Shown here: piece after piece, positions 3,525 through 50,672 of the stretch
How positions within the stretch are numbered: position 1 is the first letter of the stretch
How the letters are laid out: every line of letters begins with the position of its first letter
DNA from: Methyloversatilis thermotolerans
GTDB taxonomy: Bacteria; Pseudomonadota; Gammaproteobacteria; Burkholderiales; Rhodocyclaceae
Direction: 5' to 3'
Length of the DNA stretch: 64,000 nt
Assembly (NCBI RefSeq): GCF_000372885.1
Contig: NZ_KB889967.1
Location: 2,865,430 to 2,929,429, forward strand
The notes under the pieces: generated by a model
The model's input: the letters and a program-made list of their open reading frames with translations, nothing else
What the model was told of the DNA's origin: nothing
Databases searched by the model: none
Translations under genes and position numbers: made by a program

Positions 3525-4613
3525 ATGCAGGTCATCAGACACGCCGCCATCAGCGGCCTGGCGCTGGCACTGTTCGCCGGATCGGCGAATGCGGCCAGCC
3601 TCTACACCCTCGTCGATCTCGGCGATCTGGCCGGGGGCAGCGACAGCAGCGCCGCGCTGTCGATCAACGATGCCGGCACCGTGGTCGGCTGGGGACGCAG
3701 CGCGGCCGGACAGCGCGCCGTCATGTGGAAGGACGGCCAGATCCTGGATCTCGGCTTCACCGGTACCAGCATCGCCAACGCGATCAATGCCTCGGGCACC
3801 GTCGCGGGTTCCTTCGGCAGCGCCGGCTTCTCGCTCCCTGCCGGTGGCAGCTCGACCAGCATCGGCGATCTTCCCGGCGGCGCGGTGTTCAGCACCGCGA
3901 CCGCGGTCAATGGACAGGGCGTGGTGGTCGGCTACAGCACCGGCAGCGCCGGCACCGGCGCCACCAGCCGCGCGGTCATGTGGAAGGACGGCGTGCTCAC
4001 CGATCTGGGCAGCCTGAACGACGGTGCCGCCAGCGGCGGATTCGCCAGCTACGCCAACGACATCAACGCTGCAGGCACCATCGTCGGCTATTCCAGCGCG
4101 AGCGGCGGCCAGCACGCCTTCGTATGGCAGAACGGCGTGATGAGCGACCTGGGCGTGCTGGATGGCACGACCACGAGCCGCGCCAATGCCATCAATGCCA
4201 GCGGCACCATCGTCGGCGCGAGCGGCAGCTTCGCCGCCATCTGGCAGGACGGGCAGATCAGCCAGATCGCCTCGGTCGCCGGCGCCACCGGTGCAGCAAC
4301 CGCCTACGACATCAATGACGCCGGCTGGGTGGTCGGCCAGGTCCGGGTGGAAGGCGGCAACCAGGCTTTCCTGTGGCGCGCCGATTCCGGCATGGTCCTG
4401 CTGAGCACGCTGCTGGGCGAAGAGTACGCCGGCTGGACCGTCACCGATGCGCGCAGCATCAACAACCAGGGCTGGATCGCCGCCACCGCCTCGTTCAACG
4501 GCGTGTCGCACGCCGTTCTGCTGCAGGCGGTACCGGAACCGGAAAGCTGGGCCCTGCTGGTCGCCGGCATCGCCGTGATCGGCGCCTTCGCCCGTCGCCG
4601 CCTGCCGGCATGA
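3525..4613 (+). CDS. HAF-repeat PEP-CTERM exported protein
   Basis: A 362-residue secreted protein. A Sec signal peptide covers about residues 1-25. The body is made of at least seven HAF-type repeats of about 40-50 residues with the core INxxGxxVG (for example INDAGTVVGWG, INASGTVAGSF, INAAGTIVGYS), as expected of an extracellular beta-propeller. The last 27 residues form a PEP-CTERM sorting signal: VPEPES, a hydrophobic helix, then FARRR. PEP-CTERM proteins are processed by exosortase (not in this window) and are linked to exopolysaccharide and biofilm in the bacteria that carry them. AGGGAGAA precedes the ATG. The stop overlaps an unused ATG, and the next gene starts 23 bp later, so the two probably share a transcript. 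Confidence 0.9.
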   Translation: MQVIRHAAISGLALALFAGSANAASLYTLVDLGDLAGGSDSSAALSINDAGTVVGWGRSAAGQRAVMWKDGQILDLGFTGTSIANAINASGTVAGSFGSAGFSLPAGGSSTSIGDLPGGAVFSTATAVNGQGVVVGYSTGSAGTGATSRAVMWKDGVLTDLGSLNDGAASGGFASYANDINAAGTIVGYSSASGGQHAFVWQNGVMSDLGVLDGTTTSRANAINASGTIVGASGSFAAIWQDGQISQIASVAGATGAATAYDINDAGWVVGQVRVEGGNQAFLWRADSGMVLLSTLLGEEYAGWTVTDARSINNQGWIAATASFNGVSHAVLLQAVPEPESWALLVAGIAVIGAFARRRLPA

Positions 4614-16029: not shown

Positions 16030-17232
16030 TCAGCACAGGCGCAGCAGAAGCCCCTTCAGGTACTCGCCTTCGGGGAACGCCAGGCCCACAGGATGGTCGG
16101 CGCCGGCCGCCAGCCGGCGCAGCACCTGTGCCGACACCCCGGCATCGGCTGCGGCATCGGCGACGATCTTCTGGAAAAAGTCGGGATCGACACCGCCGGA
16201 ACAGGAATAGGTCATCAGCAGCCCGCCGGGTGCCAGCAGCCGGAAACCGAGCAGATTGATGTCCTTGTAGGCGCGCGCAGCGGATCGCGCATGCGCGGCC
16301 GAAGGGGCGAATTTAGGCGGATCGAGCACGATCAGATCGAATTTCCGCCCTTCGGCGCGGAAAGTGCGCAGCGCCTGGAACACGTCGGCTTCCAGCCAGT
16401 CGGCGCGAGCGGAATCCAGCGCAGGATTGTGCGACAGATTGCGCCGCGCGGTCTCCAGCGCCGGACCGGATGAATCGATGGACAGCACCGACTGCGCACC
16501 GCCGGCGAGCGCGTGCAACGAAAAGCCGCCGGTGTAGCAGAAACAGTTCAGTACGCGGCGGCCGGCGGACAGTTCGCCGCACAGGCGGCGGTTGTCGCGC
16601 TGATCGAGATAGAAGCCGGTCTTGTGTCCGCCGGCGACATCCACCTCGATATTCACGCCATGCTCCGCGATCACCGGGAACGGTGCGTCGCCGTCGCCCA
16701 CCAGCCAGCCGCAGCGCGGCTCCAGTCCTTCGAGCGCACGCACATCCGAATCGGAGCGTTCGAACACGCGGGTCAGGCCGGTGGCCCGCACCAGCGCATC
16801 GGCTATTGATAGCCGCCACTTCTCGCCACCGGCGCTGGTGATCTGCAGCACGATCACATCGCCGTAGCGATCGGTGATCACGCCCGGCAGGCCGTCCGAT
16901 TCGCCATGCAACAGGCGCACGCCGCCGGCCGGGCCGAATTCCGCCGCCAGTTCCGGCAGTTCGCGACGCTGTTCCACCGCCCGGCTCACGGTACGGCGGA
17001 AGAATGCATCATCCACCGACACGTCATCGAAGGTCCACATGCGGGCGCGGATCTGCGAGGCCGGCGAGTAGGCTGCACGTCCGAGCACCCGCCCGTTCGC
17101 TGCCTGCACCAGCACGGTATCGCCCGGTCGCGCCCGCCCTTCCAGACGGTCGACCGAACCTGCGAATACCCAGGGGTGGCGGCGCATGACCGAGCGCTCG
17201 CGACCCGGCGCAAGAATCAGGGTGGCACTCAT
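16030..17232 (-). CDS. rlmI: 23S rRNA m5C1962 methyltransferase RlmI-like
   Basis: A 400-residue SAM-dependent methyltransferase. An N-terminal PUA domain (about 3-75, LAPGRERSVMRRHPWVFAGS) precedes a linking domain and a Rossmann-type catalytic domain. The SAM-binding region includes VLNCFCYTGGFSLHALAGGA, the LDPPKFAPS motif follows, and a catalytic Cys lies in MTYSCSGG. Length matches RlmI of about 396 residues. It is transcribed from the side of the palindromic repeat array, which lies directly upstream of its ATG at 17232. No Shine-Dalgarno is obvious in the last bases of that array. Confidence 0.92.
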   Translation of the reverse strand: MSATLILAPGRERSVMRRHPWVFAGSVDRLEGRARPGDTVLVQAANGRVLGRAAYSPASQIRARMWTFDDVSVDDAFFRRTVSRAVEQRRELPELAAEFGPAGGVRLLHGESDGLPGVITDRYGDVIVLQITSAGGEKWRLSIADALVRATGLTRVFERSDSDVRALEGLEPRCGWLVGDGDAPFPVIAEHGVNIEVDVAGGHKTGFYLDQRDNRRLCGELSAGRRVLNCFCYTGGFSLHALAGGAQSVLSIDSSGPALETARRNLSHNPALDSARADWLEADVFQALRTFRAEGRKFDLIVLDPPKFAPSAAHARSAARAYKDINLLGFRLLAPGGLLMTYSCSGGVDPDFFQKIVADAAADAGVSAQVLRRLAAGADHPVGLAFPEGEYLKGLLLRLC

Positions 17233-17249
17233 GCTGGGTCAGTCATGGC

Positions 17250-17606
17250 GCCGCGCCCGCCGAACGGGCCGGCTGTGCAAAGCCGACCCTGCGCGAACAA
17301 AGGGAACGTGGAGTCCGACGCGCCGCCCGCAGGGCCGCCCCAAGGGTGTAGCGGGGGTTTCGGCGAGCACTGCTCGCCGCCCGCGTAACCGGTCGGCTGC
17401 GTAAAGCCGACCGTGGACGAGCGCAGCCCCTCGGCGGGGGGTGAGGCCGGGGTTGCGCGGCGCACTGCGCTGCGCCGGCCGAACGGGCCGGCTGTGCAAA
17501 GCCGGCCTCCGTGCCACGGGGTTGCGCGGCGCACTGCGCCGTGCCGGCCGAACGGGCCGGCTGTGCAAAGCCGACCCTGCGCGAACAAAGTGAGCGTGGG
17601 GGCCCT
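17250..17606 (-). repeat. Mosaic palindromic repeat array, locus A
   Basis: About 357 bp of non-coding DNA between the DUF484 stop and the rlmI start. Read on the minus strand it begins 8 bases after the DUF484 stop with CCCACGCTCACTTTGTTCG. It then repeats hairpins of the GCCGGCT/AGCCGGC type (TTGCAC loop), a GGCGAGCA/TGCTCGCC hairpin at about 17361-17377, and GGTCGGCT-type hairpins. A second start module (GTTCCCTTTGTTCGCGC) lies at about 17293-17310. The same modules recur in locus B at 40434-40890 and a short form in locus C at 23638-23690. Several reading frames stay open across it because of base composition, but no gene is supported. Confidence 0.9.
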
Positions 17607-17611
17607 CACTC

Positions 17612-18262
17612 TCATCCCAGCTCGCGGATCAGCGCGGCGCCGAGCAACTCGCCGATGCGCTCCAGGTAGAGCGTGCCCATGTCCGGCACGAAGCGCGCGT
17701 CATCATTGGCACCGAGCGCCAGCAGCCCCACCACGCGTGCGTCGCGACGCAAAGGCACCAGTGCGATCGACTGCACGGCGGAGGCCGCCTCGCCGAACCA
17801 GCCCTCGACCCCGAGGTTGTTGACCGGCCCGCAATACGGTTGCCGCGCCTCGTTGGCGAATACGCGTACTCCTTCGTCCACCGGCAGGAACACCTCGCTG
17901 TCGCGGGTAAGCACGCTGTTCCACAGACGCAGCGCGGTGTGCGGCACCGAGAACCCCTCGGACAACTGTTCCCGCAGCGCATTCATGACTGCATCGAAAC
18001 TGCCGGCAGTCATCAGCGCAATGGACAAGGCGTGCACACGGGTCGAAATGACGTCGTTGTCCTCGCCGAAGCGCAGCAGTTCGGACAGCTTGGATTCCAG
18101 GGTGCGCCCCTTCTCGCGCAGCGTCAGTATCTGCCGTTCGGTGATCGAGATGGCGCGGCCGCCGTGCGGATGAGGCACGTAGAGATGGGCAAGCAGTTCG
18201 TGATACTGCTCGAAGAACTGCGGATGATCCTGCAGATAGCGCGCGACGTCGTCGGCTTTCAT
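17612..18262 (-). CDS. DUF484 family (GAF-like) protein
   Basis: A 216-residue cytoplasmic protein. The N-terminus has DDVARYLQDHPQFFEQYHELL and a short coiled coil (TLREKGRTLESKLSELLRF, about 47-66), and the rest folds like a GAF domain. The family is usually found between dapF and xerC. Here dapF is 6 bp upstream, but the expected xerC is replaced by repeat locus A and rlmI. The role is unknown. Its stop is followed within 8 bases by the repeat element. Confidence 0.9.
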   Translation of the reverse strand: MKADDVARYLQDHPQFFEQYHELLAHLYVPHPHGGRAISITERQILTLREKGRTLESKLSELLRFGEDNDVISTRVHALSIALMTAGSFDAVMNALREQLSEGFSVPHTALRLWNSVLTRDSEVFLPVDEGVRVFANEARQPYCGPVNNLGVEGWFGEAASAVQSIALVPLRRDARVVGLLALGANDDARFVPDMGTLYLERIGELLGAALIRELG

Positions 18263-22551: not shown

Positions 22552-23631
22552 CTAGGGAACCGGATGCCTTCCCACGAAGGCATCCACCGAGTTCTCGGCG
22601 ATGCGCGTCCATAAATGCTGTTCCGAACGGAAGCGGCTCCACGGTTCGAACACCTTGCGGAACTGCGGGTTGGCGGCCGCGGTTTCGCGGTACAGCGCAA
22701 ACGCTTCCTTCTGCAGCGCGAGCAGGATGTCGCGCGAGAACATGCGCAACTGCGCGCCGCCCTCGATCAGCTTCTTCATCGCGGCGGGATTGCGCGCGTC
22801 GTAGCGCGCCTGCATGCCGACATGCGCCGCAGCGCAGGCCGATTCGAGTATCTGCCGGTAGTCGGCCGGCAAGGCGTCGAAGGCCTGCCGATTGACATAG
22901 ATCGTGAGCTGCGGCCCCGCTTCGGCCCAGCCCGGATAGTAGTAATACGGCGCAACCTTGTAGAAGCCAAGCTTCAGATCGTCGTACGGGCCGACCCACT
23001 CCGCGGCATCGATGGCGCCCTTCTCCAGCGCGGGATAGACGTCGGCACCGGGGATCTGCTGCGGTACCACGCCCAGCCGCGACACCACCTGGCCCGCATA
23101 GCCGCCGATGCGCATCTTCAGGCCCTTGAGGTCGGCCACGCTGCGTATCTCGCGGCGGAACCAGCCGCCCATCTGCGCGCCGGTATTGCCGCACGGGAAA
23201 TTGACGATGTTGTAGCCGGCGAACAGTTCGCGCAGCAGCGCCATGCCACCGCCATCGACCAGCCAGGCGGACTGTTGCCGGCTGTTCAGCCCGAAAGGCA
23301 TGGCACAGTCGAACGCGAAGGTGGGGTCCTTGCCGATGTAGTAATAGGATGCCGAATGCCCGCACTCGACCGTGCCTTCGCGCACCGCATCGAGCACGCC
23401 GAAGGGCGGCACGATCTCGTTGGCGGCGAATACCTGGATCTGGAAACGCCCGCCGGTGGCCGCACTGACCTGCTGCGCCACCTGCTCTGCGGCCGCGTAC
23501 AGCGCATCGAGCGCCTTCGGGAAGCTGGACGCAAGACGCCAGCGCAAGGCCGGCTGAGCAGCAACGATCGCCGGCGCTCCCGCCAGAGCCGCGAGGGGTG
23601 ACGCCTTCAGGAAGCCGCGCCGGTCAGTCAT
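22552..23631 (-). CDS. TRAP transporter solute-binding protein (DctP family)
   Basis: A 359-residue periplasmic binding protein. The N-terminus TDRRGFLKASPLAALAGAPA looks like a twin-arginine signal, rather than the usual Sec signal of the family. Residues after 30 (LRWRLASSFPKALDAL) begin the mature DctP fold. The segment GGWFRREIRSVADLKGLKMR holds the conserved Arg that contacts a carboxylate, and DAAEWVGPYDDLKLGFYK is the typical hinge. Substrates of relatives are carboxylates such as oxo-acids. No DctQ or DctM permease gene is nearby. The start at 23631 is preferred because the twin-arginine signal begins there; the frame continues upstream into repeat locus C. Confidence 0.85.
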   Translation of the reverse strand: MTDRRGFLKASPLAALAGAPAIVAAQPALRWRLASSFPKALDALYAAAEQVAQQVSAATGGRFQIQVFAANEIVPPFGVLDAVREGTVECGHSASYYYIGKDPTFAFDCAMPFGLNSRQQSAWLVDGGGMALLRELFAGYNIVNFPCGNTGAQMGGWFRREIRSVADLKGLKMRIGGYAGQVVSRLGVVPQQIPGADVYPALEKGAIDAAEWVGPYDDLKLGFYKVAPYYYYPGWAEAGPQLTIYVNRQAFDALPADYRQILESACAAAHVGMQARYDARNPAAMKKLIEGGAQLRMFSRDILLALQKEAFALYRETAAANPQFRKVFEPWSRFRSEQHLWTRIAENSVDAFVGRHPVP

Positions 23632-23637
23632 GCGTAC

Positions 23638-23690
23638 CTCGGGCCGCACAAGGCCGGCCCTGCGCATACGAAGTGAGCGTGGGTGCTCAC
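23638..23690 (-). repeat. Mosaic palindromic repeat, short form (locus C)
   Basis: Read on the minus strand, the element starts a few bases after the pmbA stop with CCCACGCTCACTTCGTATG and then GCAGGGCCGGCCTTGTGCGG. This is the start module and first hairpin of loci A and B, with the loop and 3' arm diverged. GTGAGC and GCTCAC around the start module can pair. It fills nearly all of the gap between pmbA and the DctP gene. Confidence 0.8.
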
Positions 23691-23692
23691 AC

Positions 23693-25033
23693 TCACGCAC
23701 CCGCGATCCGCATGCGGTCGATCAGGATGGAACCGCTCTGTTTCGAGCCGCGCACCAGTGCGTCCGAACCCACCGCCTGTATGCCCATGAACATGTCACG
23801 CAGATTGCCGGCGATGGTGATTTCCTGCACCGGGTGCGCGATCTCTCCGTTCTCTATCCAGTAGCCCGCGGCGCCGCGCGAGTAGTCGCCAGTCACGTAA
23901 TTCACGCCGTGGCCCAGCAACTCGGTCACCAGCAGTCCGCGCTTCATGCTGCGGATCAGATCGTTCAGGCTTTGCTTGCCCGACTGCAGGATGAGATTGT
24001 GCGAGCCACCGGCATTGCCGGTGGTCTGCATGCCCAGCTTGCGGGCGGAATAGCTGCTCAGGAAATAGCCGTTCAACACGCCGCCTTCGACCACTTCGCG
24101 GTCACGGGTGGCGACGCCGTCGTCGTCGAACATGCCTGAGCCCATGGCGCGCGGCAGATGTGGCCGCTCGGAAATGTTGATGTGCGCGGGGAAAATCCGC
24201 TTGCCCAGGCTGTCGAGCAGGAAGGACGACTTGCGGTACAGCGCGCCGCCGCTGGCCGCTTGCACGAAATGCCCGAGCAGGCCGATGGCCAGCGGCGCCT
24301 CGAACAGCACAGGCACGCGCGTGGTCTTGATGCGGCGTGCGCCAAGGCGAGCCAGCGCGCGACGCGCGGCATAGTCGCCGATCGCCTCCGGATCGGGCAG
24401 GTCGCCGGCCGCGCGCCGGCTGGCGTACCAGTCCTCGCGCTGCATCGCATCGCCTTCGCCGGCGATGACGGAACAACTGATGTACTGGCGGGTGCTCGCA
24501 TAGCCGGCCATGAAGCCCAGGCTGTTGGCCGACACGAACTGCGATTGCTGGGCCGACACCGAAGCGCCCTCGGAATTGCGGATGTCCGGCGACAGCGCGA
24601 ACGCGGCGTCCTCGCAGCGGCGCGCCAGATCGATGGCGGATTCGACCGGCAGCTCCCAGGGGTGGAACAGATCGAGGTCGCGGAACTCGGTCGCCAGCAG
24701 CGACGCTTCAGGCAGTCCTGCCGCATCGTCCTCGGCGGTAAACCGGGCGATCGAAAGCGCGGCATCGACCGTGGCGCGCATGGCGTCGGCGGAAAAGTCG
24801 CTGGAACTGGCGTAACCGCGACGCTGGCCGACATAGACGGTGACGCCTATGCCCTTGTCGCGGTTGTATTCGATGGTTTCAACCTCACCACGGCGTACCG
24901 TGACCGACTGGCCGAAACCTTCGGACACGTCGACTTCGGCTGCGGAGGCCCCGCCTGCGCGGGCATGATCGATAAGCTGTTGCGCGATATCGCGCAGGCT
25001 GGCGTCGTTATAGCTGAAACCCTGTCGGGACAT
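23693..25033 (-). CDS. pmbA: TldE/PmbA family metalloprotease component
   Basis: A 446-residue protein of the TldD/PmbA family, which with TldD forms a heterodimeric protease that matures peptides and degrades the CcdA antitoxin in relatives. N-terminal blocks include GKVxVRRGEVE-like VTVRRGEVETIEYNRDKG and YASSSDFS. C-terminal blocks include DDDGVATRDREVVEGG, TTGNAGGSHNL, LLVTELLGHGVNYVTGDYS and GAAGYWIENGE. PmbA lacks the TldD zinc HExxxH motif, and none is seen here. The ATG at 25033 is chosen over an in-frame upstream start. It is divergent from yjgA with a 60-bp gap. The repeat element follows its stop. Confidence 0.93.
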   Translation of the reverse strand: MSRQGFSYNDASLRDIAQQLIDHARAGGASAAEVDVSEGFGQSVTVRRGEVETIEYNRDKGIGVTVYVGQRRGYASSSDFSADAMRATVDAALSIARFTAEDDAAGLPEASLLATEFRDLDLFHPWELPVESAIDLARRCEDAAFALSPDIRNSEGASVSAQQSQFVSANSLGFMAGYASTRQYISCSVIAGEGDAMQREDWYASRRAAGDLPDPEAIGDYAARRALARLGARRIKTTRVPVLFEAPLAIGLLGHFVQAASGGALYRKSSFLLDSLGKRIFPAHINISERPHLPRAMGSGMFDDDGVATRDREVVEGGVLNGYFLSSYSARKLGMQTTGNAGGSHNLILQSGKQSLNDLIRSMKRGLLVTELLGHGVNYVTGDYSRGAAGYWIENGEIAHPVQEITIAGNLRDMFMGIQAVGSDALVRGSKQSGSILIDRMRIAGA

Positions 25034-39546: not shown

Positions 39547-40419
39547 ATGGGACTCAGACTCAAATTCAACCTGGTGCTGATCGGCGTGTTCGCGCTCGGC
39601 CTGGCGGCCTGCGCCGTGCTGTCACACCGTCTGCTGCACGACAATGCGCGCGCCGAGGTGGAGCGCAACGCGCGGCTCATGATGGAAACGGCGCTGGCCA
39701 TCCGCGCCTACACGGTGAGCCAGATCAAGCCCCACCTCGATCCCATGCTGGCGGAGCAGTTCCTGCCGCAGACCGTGCCGGCCTACGCGGCGACCGAAAC
39801 GCTGAACGAACTGCGCAAGAATCATCCCGAGTACGCCTACAAGGAGGCGACGCTCAATCCGACCAATCCGCGGGATCGCGCCTCCGACTGGGAAGCGGAT
39901 CTGGTCACCAGCTTCCGCAATGCCAGCGAGATCAAGGAATTGACCGGAGAGCGCGACACGCCGACCGGTCGCCACATGTATATCGCGCGCCCGATCCAGA
40001 TCACCAATCCGGCCTGTCTGGCCTGCCACACCACGCCGTCGGTGGCGCCCGCCTCCATGGTGAAGGTGTATGGCGAGGCGAATGGCTTCGGCTGGAAGCT
40101 CAACGAAATCATCGGCGCACAGGTGGTATCGGTGCCGATGACGGTGCCGGTGGCCAATGCCGACCGCGCCTTCACCACCTTCATGGCATCGCTGGTGGGC
40201 GTGTTCGTGTTCGTGATGGTGGCGCTGAACGTGATGCTCGAGTGGCTCATCATCCGTCCGGTGGCGCGTCTGTCCGCTGCCGCTGACCGCATCAGCACCG
40301 GCGATTTCACGGTGCCCGAATTCAAGGATCACGGGCGTGACGAGGTGTCGGTACTCGGCGCTTCATTCAACCGCATGCGCCGCAGCCTGGAAACGGCGAT
40401 GCGCATGATCGACGGTTGA
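39547..40419 (+). CDS. DUF3365 haem-binding sensor with HAMP domain
   Basis: A 290-residue inner-membrane protein. A first transmembrane helix lies at about 8-27, then a periplasmic DUF3365 (Tll0287-like) domain with a c-type haem motif CLACH (157-161), a second helix at about 211-232 and a HAMP domain at 233-285. It ends soon after HAMP with no kinase or methyl-accepting output domain, so it may signal by contact with another protein. The kinase gene lies about 480 bp downstream, past a repeat array. A redox or gas sensing role is inferred. Confidence 0.83.
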   Translation: MGLRLKFNLVLIGVFALGLAACAVLSHRLLHDNARAEVERNARLMMETALAIRAYTVSQIKPHLDPMLAEQFLPQTVPAYAATETLNELRKNHPEYAYKEATLNPTNPRDRASDWEADLVTSFRNASEIKELTGERDTPTGRHMYIARPIQITNPACLACHTTPSVAPASMVKVYGEANGFGWKLNEIIGAQVVSVPMTVPVANADRAFTTFMASLVGVFVFVMVALNVMLEWLIIRPVARLSAAADRISTGDFTVPEFKDHGRDEVSVLGASFNRMRRSLETAMRMIDG

Positions 40420-40433
40420 GGGGAAATATGGCC

Positions 40434-40890
40434 CCCACGCTCACTTCGTTCGCACAGGGCCGGCTTTGCACAGCCGGCCCGTTCAGCCGGCGCGGCGCAT
40501 GCGCCGCGAAACCCCGGCCTCACCCCCACCACGGGGGCTGCGCTCGTTCCACGGTCGGCTTTGCACAGCCGACCGGTTACGCGGGCGGCGAGCAATGCTC
40601 GCCGAAACCCCCGCTACACCCTTGGGGCGGCCCGGCGGACGGCGCTACCCACGGTCGGCTTTGTAAAGCCGACCGGTTGCGCGGGCGGCGAGCAGTGCTC
40701 GCCGAAACCCCCGCTACACCCCCCACGCTCACTTCGTTCGTACAGAGCCGGCTTTGCACAGCCGGCCCGTTCAGCCGGCGCGGCGCATGCGCCGCGAAAC
40801 CCCGGCCTCACCCCCACCACGGGGGCTGCGCTCGTTCCACGGTCGGCTTTGCACAGCCGACCGGTTTGGCAGGCAAGGCGCGGTGCGCCG
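40434..40890 (+). repeat. Mosaic palindromic repeat array, locus B
   Basis: This fills most of the 483-bp gap before the kinase gene. It starts 14 bases after the sensor stop with CCCACGCTCACTTCGTTCG. Units in order are a 9-bp hairpin (40457-40480), the 18-base palindrome CGCGGCGCATGCGCCGCG (40491-40508), a 22-base hairpin (40553-40574), a 17-base hairpin with GGCGAGCA arms (40587-40603), another 22-base hairpin (40653-40674), a second 17-base one (40687-40703), and a second start module at 40722. From 40747 the first unit is repeated. The last part (from 40863) is diverged and runs into the kinase start. Confidence 0.93.
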
Positions 40891-40902
40891 CGGGTGACTG
40901 AA

Positions 40903-43002
40903 ATGACCGAAGGTCCGCCGGAAGACGATGACGACGACTCGATCACCGAGGACAGCGTTGTCCGCGATGTGCTGAAGGGCAGCGGTTTCCTGCCCACGGC
41001 CACCACTTCGGCCGGCGCCCTGCCCTCGGGCTGGGCGCTGAACGAATACCGCATCGAGTCGCTGCTCGGCGGCGGCGGCTTCGGCCTGACCTATCTCGCG
41101 CACGACACGCTGCTCGACTGCAAGGTCGCCATCAAGGAATTCCTGCCCACCGATCTGGCGGTGCGCGGCGAGGGCCAGCGCGTGATGCCGCGCGCCGGTC
41201 CGGCACTGGACATGTTCGAGCAGGGCCTGCGCCGCTTCCTGGACGAATCTCGCGCGCTGGCCAATTTCCGCCACCCCAACATCGTGCGCGTGAATCGCTT
41301 CTTCGAGGCGAATGGCAGCGCCTACATGGTGATGGACTATGTACAGGGTCGCACGCTGAGCCAGTGGATGCGCGAACGGCGCGAGGCGCTCGACCGCACG
41401 ACGCTGGTGGCCATCGTGAAGCCGCTGCTGGAAGGACTGCAGGTGATTCACGACGGCGGTTTCCTGCATCGCGACATCAAGCCGGCGAATATCTGCATCC
41501 GCGACGACGGCATGCCGGTACTGCTGGACTTCGGCGCCGCCCGTCGCTACCACGATGGCGGGCACACGCTGACCGCCATCGTGACGCCGGGCTTCGCGCC
41601 CTTCGAGCAGTACCACTCGCATGGCAACCAGGGGCCATGGACCGACATCTATTCGCTGGCCGCGGTCATGTACTGGCTGGTGACCGGACAACGCCCGGTG
41701 GAATCGGCGGCACGGGTGCACAACGATCCGCTGCAGCCGGCGGCGCGCGCGGCCGACGCCAATGTGTTCGGCGCCTCGCTGCTGCGCGCGATCGACTGGG
41801 GACTGGAGCCGGACGAGACCCGCCGCCCGCGCAGCGTGGCGGATTTCCGGCGCGTCTTCATGCCGGCGCCGGCGCAGGCCGCGCGCGGGCCGCTGGCCAG
41901 CGGCAACCCGCCGGCCGCACCCGCCGTGCATGCGAGCGGGGCCTCGGAAGAACGCCGCACCATCGTGTGCAGCGTGCTGTACACGCGGATAGACCAGTGC
42001 GAAGAACTGGACACCGCGCGCCGGCTGGCCAGCAAGTCGGAACTGGACGAGGCGCTGGCACGCGCGGCGCGCTCGGTGGATATCGACAGCCGGCTCATCC
42101 ACGACACGCCGGATGGTGCCGTGCTGTGCCTGCTGGGCGAGCCGGAGGACGCTTGCGTCGTCGCGCAGCGGCTGCGCAAGCTCGATCTCGATGATGCAGG
42201 CGGCGTGCGCCAGGGCATCAACCTCGGTCCGGTGCGGGTGACGCGAGCCGGCACCGGCGCGCTCGACCTGCACGGCGACGGCGTGGATACCGCGCGCGCG
42301 CTGGCGCGGCTGGCCCAGCCGGGGCAGGTTCTGGTGTCACGCGCCTATTACGAAACGGTGTCGGCACTGGGCAGCGGCGCGCCGGATGGCCTGCGCGCCA
42401 CCGGCCAGCGCGCCGACATCGCCTCGCGCAGCCAGGAGGTGTTCGAGCTGGACGCGCGCAGCGGCATCACGCGCCGGCTGGACGAAGGACTTTCGCAGCC
42501 GCTGCACGACGGCTTCACACCGGTAGTGGAAGCGCTGCTGGCACGCCATATCGGCCCCATGTCGCGCGTGCTGGTCGCGCGCCTGTCGACGCAGGCCGCA
42601 GGCCCGGCACAGTTGATCGAACAGCTCGCGGTGCACATTCCGGGCGAAGCCCAACGTGCCGGCTTCCTGATCGAGGCGCGGCGTCATCTGTCGGGCACGT
42701 CCAGCCTGTCGGCAGTAGGTCGCAGCGGTGCTTCCGCGGCATTGTCCGGCACGCCGCGCAGCGCGCCGGCAAGTTCACCGAGCGTACCGGTGAGCGGCTC
42801 GCGCGGCTATACCTCGCGGCCGCTCGACGAAGCGACGCTGGCCGACATCGAAAAAAGGCTGGCGCGCTGCATCGGCCCGGTCGCGCGCATCCTGATCACG
42901 CGCGCACTGAAGCGGGTCAGTACTGAACAGGCCCTGCTCGAGGACCTTGCACGCGAAATACCCGATCCGGCCCAGCGCGCCGCCTTCCTGGCCGGCCGCT
43001 GA
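40903..43002 (+). CDS. Ser/Thr protein kinase with degenerate cyclase-like domain
   Basis: A 699-residue cytoplasmic protein. An acidic N-terminus (8-12) leads to a kinase domain at about 48-320: glycine loop GGGGFG (56-61), Lys78 in VAIKEF, catalytic HRDIKPAN (189-196), DFG (209-211). Residues about 350-515 resemble a class III nucleotide cyclase domain (VLYTRIDQCEEL, then GINLGPV, GDGVDTARALARLAQPGQVL). The first metal-binding Asp is replaced by Arg362, so catalysis is doubtful. Two copies of a short helical domain (about 541-592 and 648-697) end the protein, each with HIGPM/CIGPV and IPGEAQRAGF/IPDPAQRAAF. Start at 40903 follows the repeat array; the open frame upstream is repeat DNA. Confidence 0.88.
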   Translation: MTEGPPEDDDDDSITEDSVVRDVLKGSGFLPTATTSAGALPSGWALNEYRIESLLGGGGFGLTYLAHDTLLDCKVAIKEFLPTDLAVRGEGQRVMPRAGPALDMFEQGLRRFLDESRALANFRHPNIVRVNRFFEANGSAYMVMDYVQGRTLSQWMRERREALDRTTLVAIVKPLLEGLQVIHDGGFLHRDIKPANICIRDDGMPVLLDFGAARRYHDGGHTLTAIVTPGFAPFEQYHSHGNQGPWTDIYSLAAVMYWLVTGQRPVESAARVHNDPLQPAARAADANVFGASLLRAIDWGLEPDETRRPRSVADFRRVFMPAPAQAARGPLASGNPPAAPAVHASGASEERRTIVCSVLYTRIDQCEELDTARRLASKSELDEALARAARSVDIDSRLIHDTPDGAVLCLLGEPEDACVVAQRLRKLDLDDAGGVRQGINLGPVRVTRAGTGALDLHGDGVDTARALARLAQPGQVLVSRAYYETVSALGSGAPDGLRATGQRADIASRSQEVFELDARSGITRRLDEGLSQPLHDGFTPVVEALLARHIGPMSRVLVARLSTQAAGPAQLIEQLAVHIPGEAQRAGFLIEARRHLSGTSSLSAVGRSGASAALSGTPRSAPASSPSVPVSGSRGYTSRPLDEATLADIEKRLARCIGPVARILITRALKRVSTEQALLEDLAREIPDPAQRAAFLAGR

Positions 43003-45059: not shown

Positions 45060-45067
45060 CACGACCT

Positions 45068-45157
45068 TCCGAGGAGCGCTGCAAGGTGCCGCAAGGCCCC
45101 CAGGCTCGGACCCCGCCAGACCGCAACGGTCGCGGGCATTTTGCAACGGCGCTCGCC
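45068..45157 (+). ncRNA. SAH riboswitch
   Basis: The sequence has the conserved core CCGAGGAGCGCTGC, then CCCCCAGGCTCGG, and the downstream GCAACGGCGCTCGCC. CCGAG pairs with CTCGG, and GAGCGC (45073-45078) pairs with GCGCTC (45149-45154), as in the SAH riboswitch family. The family turns ahcY on when S-adenosylhomocysteine builds up. Downstream, an 8-bp hairpin GGCAGGTG/CACCTGCC (45192-45211) sits 7 bp before the AGGAG (45219-45223) and may be part of the expression platform. Confidence 0.93.
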
Positions 45158-45230
45158 TGGACCCGCCACGGATCGTCATCCGGCCGTGGCTGGCAGGTGA
45201 GCACACCTGCCGTTTGACAAGGAGCCCGTA

Positions 45231-48305: not shown

Positions 48306-48423
48306 ATCCGGTCTCGTCGGGCGGGTCCAGCACGCGATGAAGGGTTTACGGCAGGCCGGCGGACCGGCTTGAACGGCCTGCTTGCGCGGGCCGGGCGGGC
48401 GGGTTACCTTTGCGCGGCACACG

Positions 48424-50483
<2,060 letters not shown>

Positions 50484-50582
50484 CGGCTTGCGCGGGCACA
50501 GGGCGACCGCGGGGGAAACACATCTTTTCCGCGCGGCGCCCTCAAGTCATCCGCCGGTCACCCGTAATCCAGTTCGAAGCTG

Positions 50583-50672
50583 AAAAAGGCAAACCCGCGC
50601 GAAAGCCGGGGACGCAAAGCCACCGGTCTAATCCGCGCGCGAGCGCGGCACGACAGCGGGGTCGCCAGATCC
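50583..50672 (+). ncRNA. Cyclic di-GMP-I riboswitch (GEMM)
   Basis: The aptamer shows AGGCAAACC, a GAAA loop, GGGGACGCAAAGCCACCGG, GTCTAA (receptor) and AGCGGGGTCGCC in the order and spacing of the GEMM-I consensus. The class binds c-di-GMP. It lies about 70 bases before the metalloprotease ATG. How binding changes expression (on or off) cannot be read here. Confidence 0.92.

Follow-up and report, generated by a model that had tools for sequence, protein, structure and literature searches.

The window analysed in this study, that is the whole stretch of 64,000 nucleotides from Methyloversatilis thermotolerans, holds a hairpin-rich repeat at three loci. The longest copy is a composite array on the plus strand (40434..40890), with start modules at 40434-40452 and 40722-40740 and hairpin modules of two types, the GGTCGGC..TTTGCACA..GCCGACC type and the GGCGAGCAnTGCTCGCC type. 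It is located between a gene for a Tll0287-like protein with a HAMP domain (39547..40419, plus strand; Pfam PF11845 and PF00672) and a Ser/Thr protein kinase gene (40903..43002, plus strand; PF00069). A second composite array, on the minus strand (17250..17606), contains one near-exact start module (17582-17600, one mismatch). It follows a DUF484 gene (17612..18262, minus strand; PF04340) and precedes a gene for an RlmI-like SAM methyltransferase (16030..17232, minus strand; PF10672 and PF17785), the start of which was set by the ORF and the conserved N-terminus and not by the gene finder. The third copy, also on the minus strand (23638..23690), is a short remnant composed of a degenerate start module (23665-23683, two mismatches) and a short hairpin-like stretch; its neighbours are PmbA and DctP, the DctP start being chosen by reading the N-terminus MTDRRGF and not by the gene finder.

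Analysis of the window at up to three mismatches revealed four matches to the start module CCCACGCTCACTTCGTTCG (40434 and 40722 on the plus strand, 17600 and 23683 on the minus strand), where shuffles lead one to expect 0.05. A preliminary description of this DNA had proposed that the three loci have a start module and a set of hairpins in common. The common module is borne out by the four matches. The common hairpins hold for repeat families D1, D2 and D4 and inverted pairs I1-I19, but the copy at 23.6 kb is only a short remnant. The same description placed the module within 20 bases of the upstream stop, in the direction of transcription and between two co-directional genes; indeed, the module begins 14, 11 and 9 nt after same-strand stops ending at 40419, 17612 and 23693, respectively, and all three elements lie between co-directional genes.

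A mini-ORF runs through each of the three elements, opening at a start codon near the upstream stop and ending on the start of the next gene, an arrangement that takes the forms NTGA, TGATG and TGA-N-ATG across the family. In the longest array the mini-ORF has 157 codons (40428..40901, plus strand); its ATG lies 8 nt past the Tll0287/HAMP stop (TGA, 40417-40419), and one base, A, separates its own TGA from the kinase ATG (TGA-A-ATG). The second array carries a mini-ORF of 128 codons (17229..17615, minus strand) with ATGA over the DUF484 stop at its start and ATGA over the RlmI start at its end. Even the remnant is spanned by 22 codons (23628..23696, minus strand), from GTGA over the PmbA stop to ATGA over the DctP start. 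Two hairpin-module copies inside the 157-codon mini-ORF (40549-40621 and 40649-40721) are 100 nt apart and are therefore in different frames; it is the total length, not the module length, that keeps the frame.

Strong hairpins right behind stop codons would suit 3' end formation or transcription termination between genes, a role suggested in the preliminary description. An intrinsic-terminator-like site was found at none of the three window loci, and the genes downstream of the elements are mostly co-directional. Elsewhere the elements lie between MraZ and RsmH, MraY and MurD, and SucC and SucD, pairs that commonly form operons. These observations speak against such a role, which we consider extremely improbable. 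No Rfam 15 family matched the element at its gathering score, the best match in 40400-40930 being che1 with 21 bits against a cut-off of 54, and an Rfam identity was rejected. Matches above the gathering scores occur in the window only elsewhere, for riboswitches of the TPP (48416-48521), SAH (45065-45161) and c-di-GMP-I-GGC (50579-50670) classes.

Unit architecture and placement after stop codons

The core unit of the family measures about 75-80 nt. At its commonest left end the upstream stop is followed by n, ATG and AAACRR; then come CCCCCACGCTCACTNCGTTCG, hairpin 1 (GCCCCC..GGGGGC) and hairpin 2, which has variable arms around a TTNGGRCGGCC-like core. Often the 3' arm of hairpin 2 contains the TGA that ends the mini-ORF and either borders on the next start codon or takes it in; in some units this hairpin reads CATCAG...CTGATG. 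Alignment of 65 units, in which the module is invariant because it was used as the search pattern, gave a consensus that starts with CCCCCACGCTC and ends with GCTGAnATG.

Comparison of the hairpin-2 arms across this alignment revealed that 90.6% of cells are paired, against 74.5% after shuffling. Double-change cells numbered 129 against 42 shuffled (0/500 shuffles; slid versions of the structure gave at most 51), and the covariation score was 0.435 against 0.161 shuffled, every slid version being lower. In the same test no excess was found for pairs with a double change (8 vs 7.6 shuffled) or for further pair types (21 vs 21.2 shuffled). In a stem search free of the alignment the stems averaged 6.7, compared with 3.3 when the partners were shuffled. 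Covariation of the hairpin arms is supported by these results, with the caveats that the tested structure was derived from the same alignment and that two of the counts showed no excess. The long window array (40417-40915) folds better than shuffles (z = -6.25), while three single units fold no better than dinucleotide shuffles (z -0.8 to -1.5).

A search of the genome itself with an 18-mer at up to two mismatches gave 20 matches, the reversed control pattern giving none. These matches represent 12 places, of which 11 follow a same-direction stop and one (L018) is within a called gene. A pattern scan of named public genomes listed at least 125 matches at no fewer than 118 loci (set A); 120 of the 125 listed were scored, since three inside called genes and two without an upstream gene were dropped. 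Among the matches listed, 98 of the 120 lie at most 30 nt past a same-strand stop, compared with 11.6% of 23,187 random intergenic positions. The upstream gene is on the same strand in 112/120 of these listed matches; downstream of those 112 there is a co-directional gene in 100 cases, an opposite one in five and no called gene in seven.

A separate search of family genomes (set B) gave 111 places among the matches listed, four of which were inside genes and were dropped; two DUF484 junctions were left out of this set and scored separately with the DUF484/RlmI alleles. Here 97/107 of the listed places lie at most 30 nt past a same-strand stop. Nine places of set B duplicate set-A sequences over 120 nt, and with these removed the count among the matches listed is 88/98, the downstream gene being co-directional in 83 and opposite in four. 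Five genomes of set B belong to the same genus, and so some junctions are common with the comparison of filled and empty junctions given below. Set C consists of 56 places examined of 126 covariance-model matches, several of them mutually orthologous; 43/56 lie at most 30 nt past a same-strand stop, in a set that is not independent of the module because the model was built from module-bearing units. Genes were called with a codon-model gene finder, whose starts are imprecise; the downstream starts at window positions 17600 and 23683 and at L003 and L010 were taken from a conserved or read N-terminus. Overall, the three sets confirm that the repeat family is mostly placed directly after a stop codon, co-oriented with the upstream gene and between co-directional genes. 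The preliminary description is partly supported: its placement rule holds well beyond the window, and the roles it proposed fare worse.

Reading frame and junction alleles

Analysis of the set-A sequences revealed that a start codon lies between the stop of the upstream gene and the module, and that the start of the next gene is overlain by a stop codon. Among the matches listed, 65 of 100 elements located at most 60 nt from the stop have a mini-ORF that ends between -4 and +12 of an ATG, which itself had to open at least 60 codons; 29 of these 65 listed mini-ORFs end at -4, 21 at +1 and eight at -1. A stricter join was defined as a mini-ORF end within -4 to +2 of the start of the called downstream gene. 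Among the matches listed, set A comprises 88 distinct elements, of which 79 have an ATG; by this measure 60/79 are joined in the ATG frame, and the two remaining frames give two and 23. The corresponding numbers among the listed matches of set B are 46/86 against two and 16, or 42/77 against two and 12 without duplicates. Co-directional gaps of 45-220 nt free of the module were joined in only 18 of 229 cases (7.9%). Fifteen of the failing elements are without any ATG or start codon (9/88 in set A and 6/111 of set-B type, among the matches listed). NTGA is a common junction anyway, and the mini-ORF stop is therefore partly given by the downstream gene. A difference in Shine-Dalgarno strength between joined and unjoined elements was rejected (24/75 vs 11/43).

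The array might be translated because a C-rich, structured stretch left untranslated inside an operon would load Rho and lead to polarity; where exactly the mini-ORF ends would then be secondary. The C-rich start module and the predominance of co-directional neighbours (100 vs 5 in set A and 83 vs 4 in set B without duplicates, among the matches listed) are in keeping with such a shield, as are the mini-ORFs that fuse in frame with the next gene (5/79 in set A and 6/77 in set B, among the matches listed). The shield would allow any nearby end, yet the 65 listed mini-ORFs end as given above, and the SucC/SucD junction tolerates a whole unit, five alleles having neither ATG nor GTG behind the sucC stop. 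We regard this explanation as unlikely.

The module is read in three frames (PPRSLRS, PTLTSFA and PHAHFVR), and agreement between start and stop was analysed by phase, a test that assumes no single master frame. The test covered 96 units in which a stop adjoins the next start, exact duplicates between the sets having been removed. The phase of the start equals that of the stop in 78/96 units, whereas permutation gave a mean of 46.5 and a maximum of 62 in 20,000 permutations. With one unit per gene-pair cluster the agreement was 67/80 (permuted mean 41.6, maximum 56 of 20,000), and by phase it was 42/49, 7/10 and 18/21. Start codons in the other two phases thus also end in frame, and frame agreement is therefore not merely the inheritance of one master. 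The spacing of consecutive modules is divisible by three in 10/11 cases in set A and in 18/23 in set B without duplicates, both among the matches listed, and in 7/8 in the genome itself (5/5 before diverged modules were added, whose spacings are 258 and 75, multiples of three, and 217, which is not).

These results weigh on the view that no selection is involved, in which copies descend from one open-frame master, GC-rich DNA is open by default and placement reflects an insertion preference only. The commonest frame (MKRPPRSLRSLPPEGA...) is indeed common to most units, and the left end ATGAAACRR recurs and may therefore be part of the element. Chance openness is also substantial: after dinucleotide shuffling the frame stays open with a probability of 0.17-0.93 per array in nine arrays of the genome itself. 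Openness alone is therefore weak evidence for a single array of this GC-rich kind, and the argument depends on where the stop lies and in which phase. Agreement about as high in the other two phases, the low joining of matched module-free gaps, and alleles at one junction that differ in length and start codon and are still joined all count against this view, which is disfavoured and in our judgement quite improbable.

At eight of the 11 sites in the genome itself, the end of the mini-ORF falls in the range from 7 nt inside to 1 nt ahead of the next start. Outside the window the joined mini-ORFs have 131 (L001), 107 (L003), 17 (L010), 143 (L011) and 196 codons (L015). A mini-ORF of 275 codons at L007 ends 10 nt short, and L009 and L020 are without a join. 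A further site found with the model (L377) is joined by 27 codons; two module-less arrays (L378 and L379) are not joined, and bridging was seen in none of the eight module-less arrays examined. In seven arrays (L379, L395, L396, L399, L408, L415 and L420) hairpins 1 and 2 are present, another hairpin-like stretch replaces the start module, and the array lies about 28-36 nt behind the stop with no bridging mini-ORF. A conserved peptide was considered and rejected. A 27-codon mini-ORF that is orthologous in seven genus genomes at one junction has 5, 5 and 6 variable columns at codon positions 1, 2 and 3, and three frames are used in the family; there is therefore no sign of peptide constraint, and what is kept is an open frame from gene to gene.

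Comparison of 13 genomes of the genus revealed both filled and empty states at the same junctions. In this comparison the alleles are orthologous and not independent, and an allele was counted as joined if a joined ORF results from any ATG, GTG or TTG close to the stop; in some cases another candidate ended short. The MraZ/RsmH junction is empty (TGACATG) in nine genomes and filled in four (114-327 nt), all four being joined as TGA-N-ATG; one of these (L302) was included by length and had been missed by the module pattern. The Tll0287/kinase junction is empty (2-7 nt) in 10 of the 13 genomes and filled in three (92, 405 and 483 nt), again all joined as TGA-N-ATG. Two junctions that measure 1-7 nt when empty thus hold 92-483 nt in seven alleles, with 7/7 bridged, and relatives show the empty sites that are looked for in MITEs.

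The module is present at PurH/PurD in three genus genomes, and all three ORFs end in ATGA. At DUF484/RlmI 11 of the 13 genomes were scored (10 filled and one empty at 18 nt; G070 and G204 were dropped since RlmI is not the next gene there). Nine of the ten filled alleles (74-384 nt) are joined by a mini-ORF ending in NTGA on RlmI, with a start codon that varies between ATG and GTG and an offset that also varies; the tenth ends 13 nt short. Five module-bearing alleles of MreD/PBP2 comprise one exact join (GTG), three mini-ORFs that end 10-18 nt short and one allele without a start codon. None of the nine SucC/SucD alleles printed is joined. An SD-like AGAGGA or CGAGGA precedes sucD in these alleles, the whole unit is tolerated, and two alleles beyond these nine (L407 and L419) show neither ATG nor GTG behind the sucC stop. 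This unbridged junction, where sucD has an SD-like sequence, is read as a natural negative control. One element site is common to L088, a record named Methyloversatilis, and the genus members L050 and L348.

Proposed translational coupling and known systems

The repeat often forms a short frame that joins the stop of one gene to the start of the next, which suggests that ribosomes read through it and keep the two genes linked. Translational insulation between genes, as proposed in the preliminary description, is contradicted by this architecture, which is one of coupling. Our analysis suggests that the repeat is probably a relay, that is a translated mini-cistron that keeps operon gene pairs translationally coupled. 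Coupling by termination and re-initiation through the mini-cistron is the best-supported mechanism. Having ended the upstream gene, ribosomes would start again at the start codon close by, open hairpin 2 by translating the repeat, then stop and either re-initiate at the overlapping start of the next gene or free it. Hairpin 2 would make downstream initiation depend on translation of the mini-ORF, and it would be the act of translation that counts, not the peptide. Over time units may have been amplified and may have acquired further hairpin modules, and selection could explain the frame agreement if, at junctions whose downstream gene needs coupling, the alleles that persist are those with start and stop in the same frame.

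As in coupled cistrons, stop and next start lie within a few nucleotides of each other (the strict joins of sets A and B among the matches listed, and 3/3 window elements), and the reading frame is maintained, as the phase permutations revealed. For iraD, a leader ORF with a stop that overlaps the next start is established (PMC5574718). The RNA-unfolding model and the junction types NTGA and TGATG are described in a review of translational coupling (PMC12548453). The elements analysed here resemble such coupled short ORFs in the overlap of stop and next start and in the structure over the downstream initiation region. Unlike the iraD leader, which is single and gene-specific, they form a dispersed family between pre-existing gene pairs.

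E. coli REPs less than 16 nt from a stop are reported to cause ribosome stalling and down-regulation of the upstream gene (Liang, Rudd and Deutscher 2015, cited in PMC12306157), and REPs that near a stop are a minority, 446 of 4,072 in PMC12306157. The likeness to our elements lies in interspersed hairpins at most 15 nt from the upstream stop and in a link to translation. In contrast to those REPs, most scored copies of the present family lie behind a stop in the same orientation, and they often contain an ORF that leads in a matching frame to the next start. A hairpin behind the stop that stalls ribosomes or stabilises the upstream mRNA, the mini-ORF being incidental, would fit the distance range (9-14 nt in the window, within the REP range given in PMC12306157). 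This brake predicts no start codon, no frame agreement and no end on the next start, and the hairpin would probably be melted by ribosomes that start again at the adjacent start codon; we consider it very unlikely.

Rickettsia palindromic elements are small mobile palindromic repeats that keep open frames and are located inside or fused to genes. The enterobacterial RU elements, which likewise carry ORFs, are described in a similar way (Delihas 2007, PMC2759123). The present family is like both in being made of small palindromic repeats with open frames and differs from both in that it forms its own cistron between two genes and does so in any frame. GTAG-class REPs associated with RAYTs can supply a stop codon or serve as coding sequence (PMC3733652; see also PMC2817692). 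The palindromic repeats analysed here also give stop codons or coding sequence, and they differ from GTAG REPs in a unit consensus without the GTAG tag and in the lack of a module beside either Y1_Tnp gene of the genome. No earlier description of this repeat family was found in the open-licence PMC literature.

More tentatively, the repeat could be a mobile translational-coupling cassette: a unit with a start codon of its own, a frame-neutral short ORF and a hairpin hiding its stop and the next start, which can enter operon junctions without uncoupling them, can lengthen by whole-frame units and adjusts the relative amounts of adjacent proteins in its betaproteobacterial hosts. If the mini-ORFs are translated, an operon can accommodate long, hairpin-rich repeats between tightly coupled genes as mini-cistrons. 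Identical junctions would then offer a natural series of inserts of about 20-200 codons, in which the mechanism of coupling (RNA unfolding or passage of the same ribosome) is testable, and a set of betaproteobacterial small ORFs would matter for being translated and not for the peptide.

Spread and mobility

The pattern was found in 58 of 199 family genomes. In an evenly drawn sample of the phylum it occurred in one of 397 genomes, the genome of the window itself, and in 0 of the 37 same-order genomes outside the family among those listed; the repeat family is therefore patchy. The scan of named genomes (80 entries among the matches listed) was dominated by Burkholderiales and Rhodocyclales; also among the matches listed were a small number of gammaproteobacterial records and a single one with the label Phycisphaerae. 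The family is found mainly in betaproteobacteria. Of 72,556 plasmid records, 11 have a stretch similar to one unit.

Analysis of the flanks of the left and right start codons in 118 units revealed agreement barely above that of shuffled partners (z 2.9 at +3, 2.7 at -4 and 2.0 at -3), and target-site duplication is not claimed. In four cases (L067, L131, L165 and L168) 8-11 identical bases surround the left and right start codons, which is not general; such single cases include CATGATCG on both sides of L067, ACTGACATGCT at L165 and CCGCATGAACG at L131. By eye, the 5' end CCCCCACGCTC is without an inverted counterpart at the 3' end of the consensus, whose ends may not be the true ends of the element. 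The preliminary description had also pointed to a Y1/REP-type transposase. Two Y1_Tnp genes are present in the genome, and neither of the surrounding loci of 3.2-3.3 kb has a module-like match; the link to a Y1_Tnp (RAYT) gene expected of REP/BIME elements was thus not seen at these loci, nor was a GTAG or CGTC tetranucleotide at a palindrome end in the 65-unit consensus. Mobilisation by a RAYT is not supported by these loci. At L022 (G000:C1:1191398) a RAYT-like Y1_Tnp gene is located inside a long array of 13 copies of GTAGGAGCG-type REPs, which are a different repeat family.

Two further observations concern movement of the element together with neighbouring DNA. A very similar element and downstream gene start occur at L108, L116, L124, L148, L158, L202 and L207, a group that spans records labelled Lysobacter, Stutzerimonas and Phycisphaerae MAG as well as family genomes; this suggests a block moving horizontally with the repeat. 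At L153, where the module is located at 2893, the stretch preceding the element is similar to part of the N-terminal coding region of MurD that follows the element, as if the element came together with a partial duplication of the MurD gene start. Elsewhere in the window, several copies of blocks of about 42 nt (families D3 and D5) occupy positions 3648-4337 and probably belong to a repeat protein.
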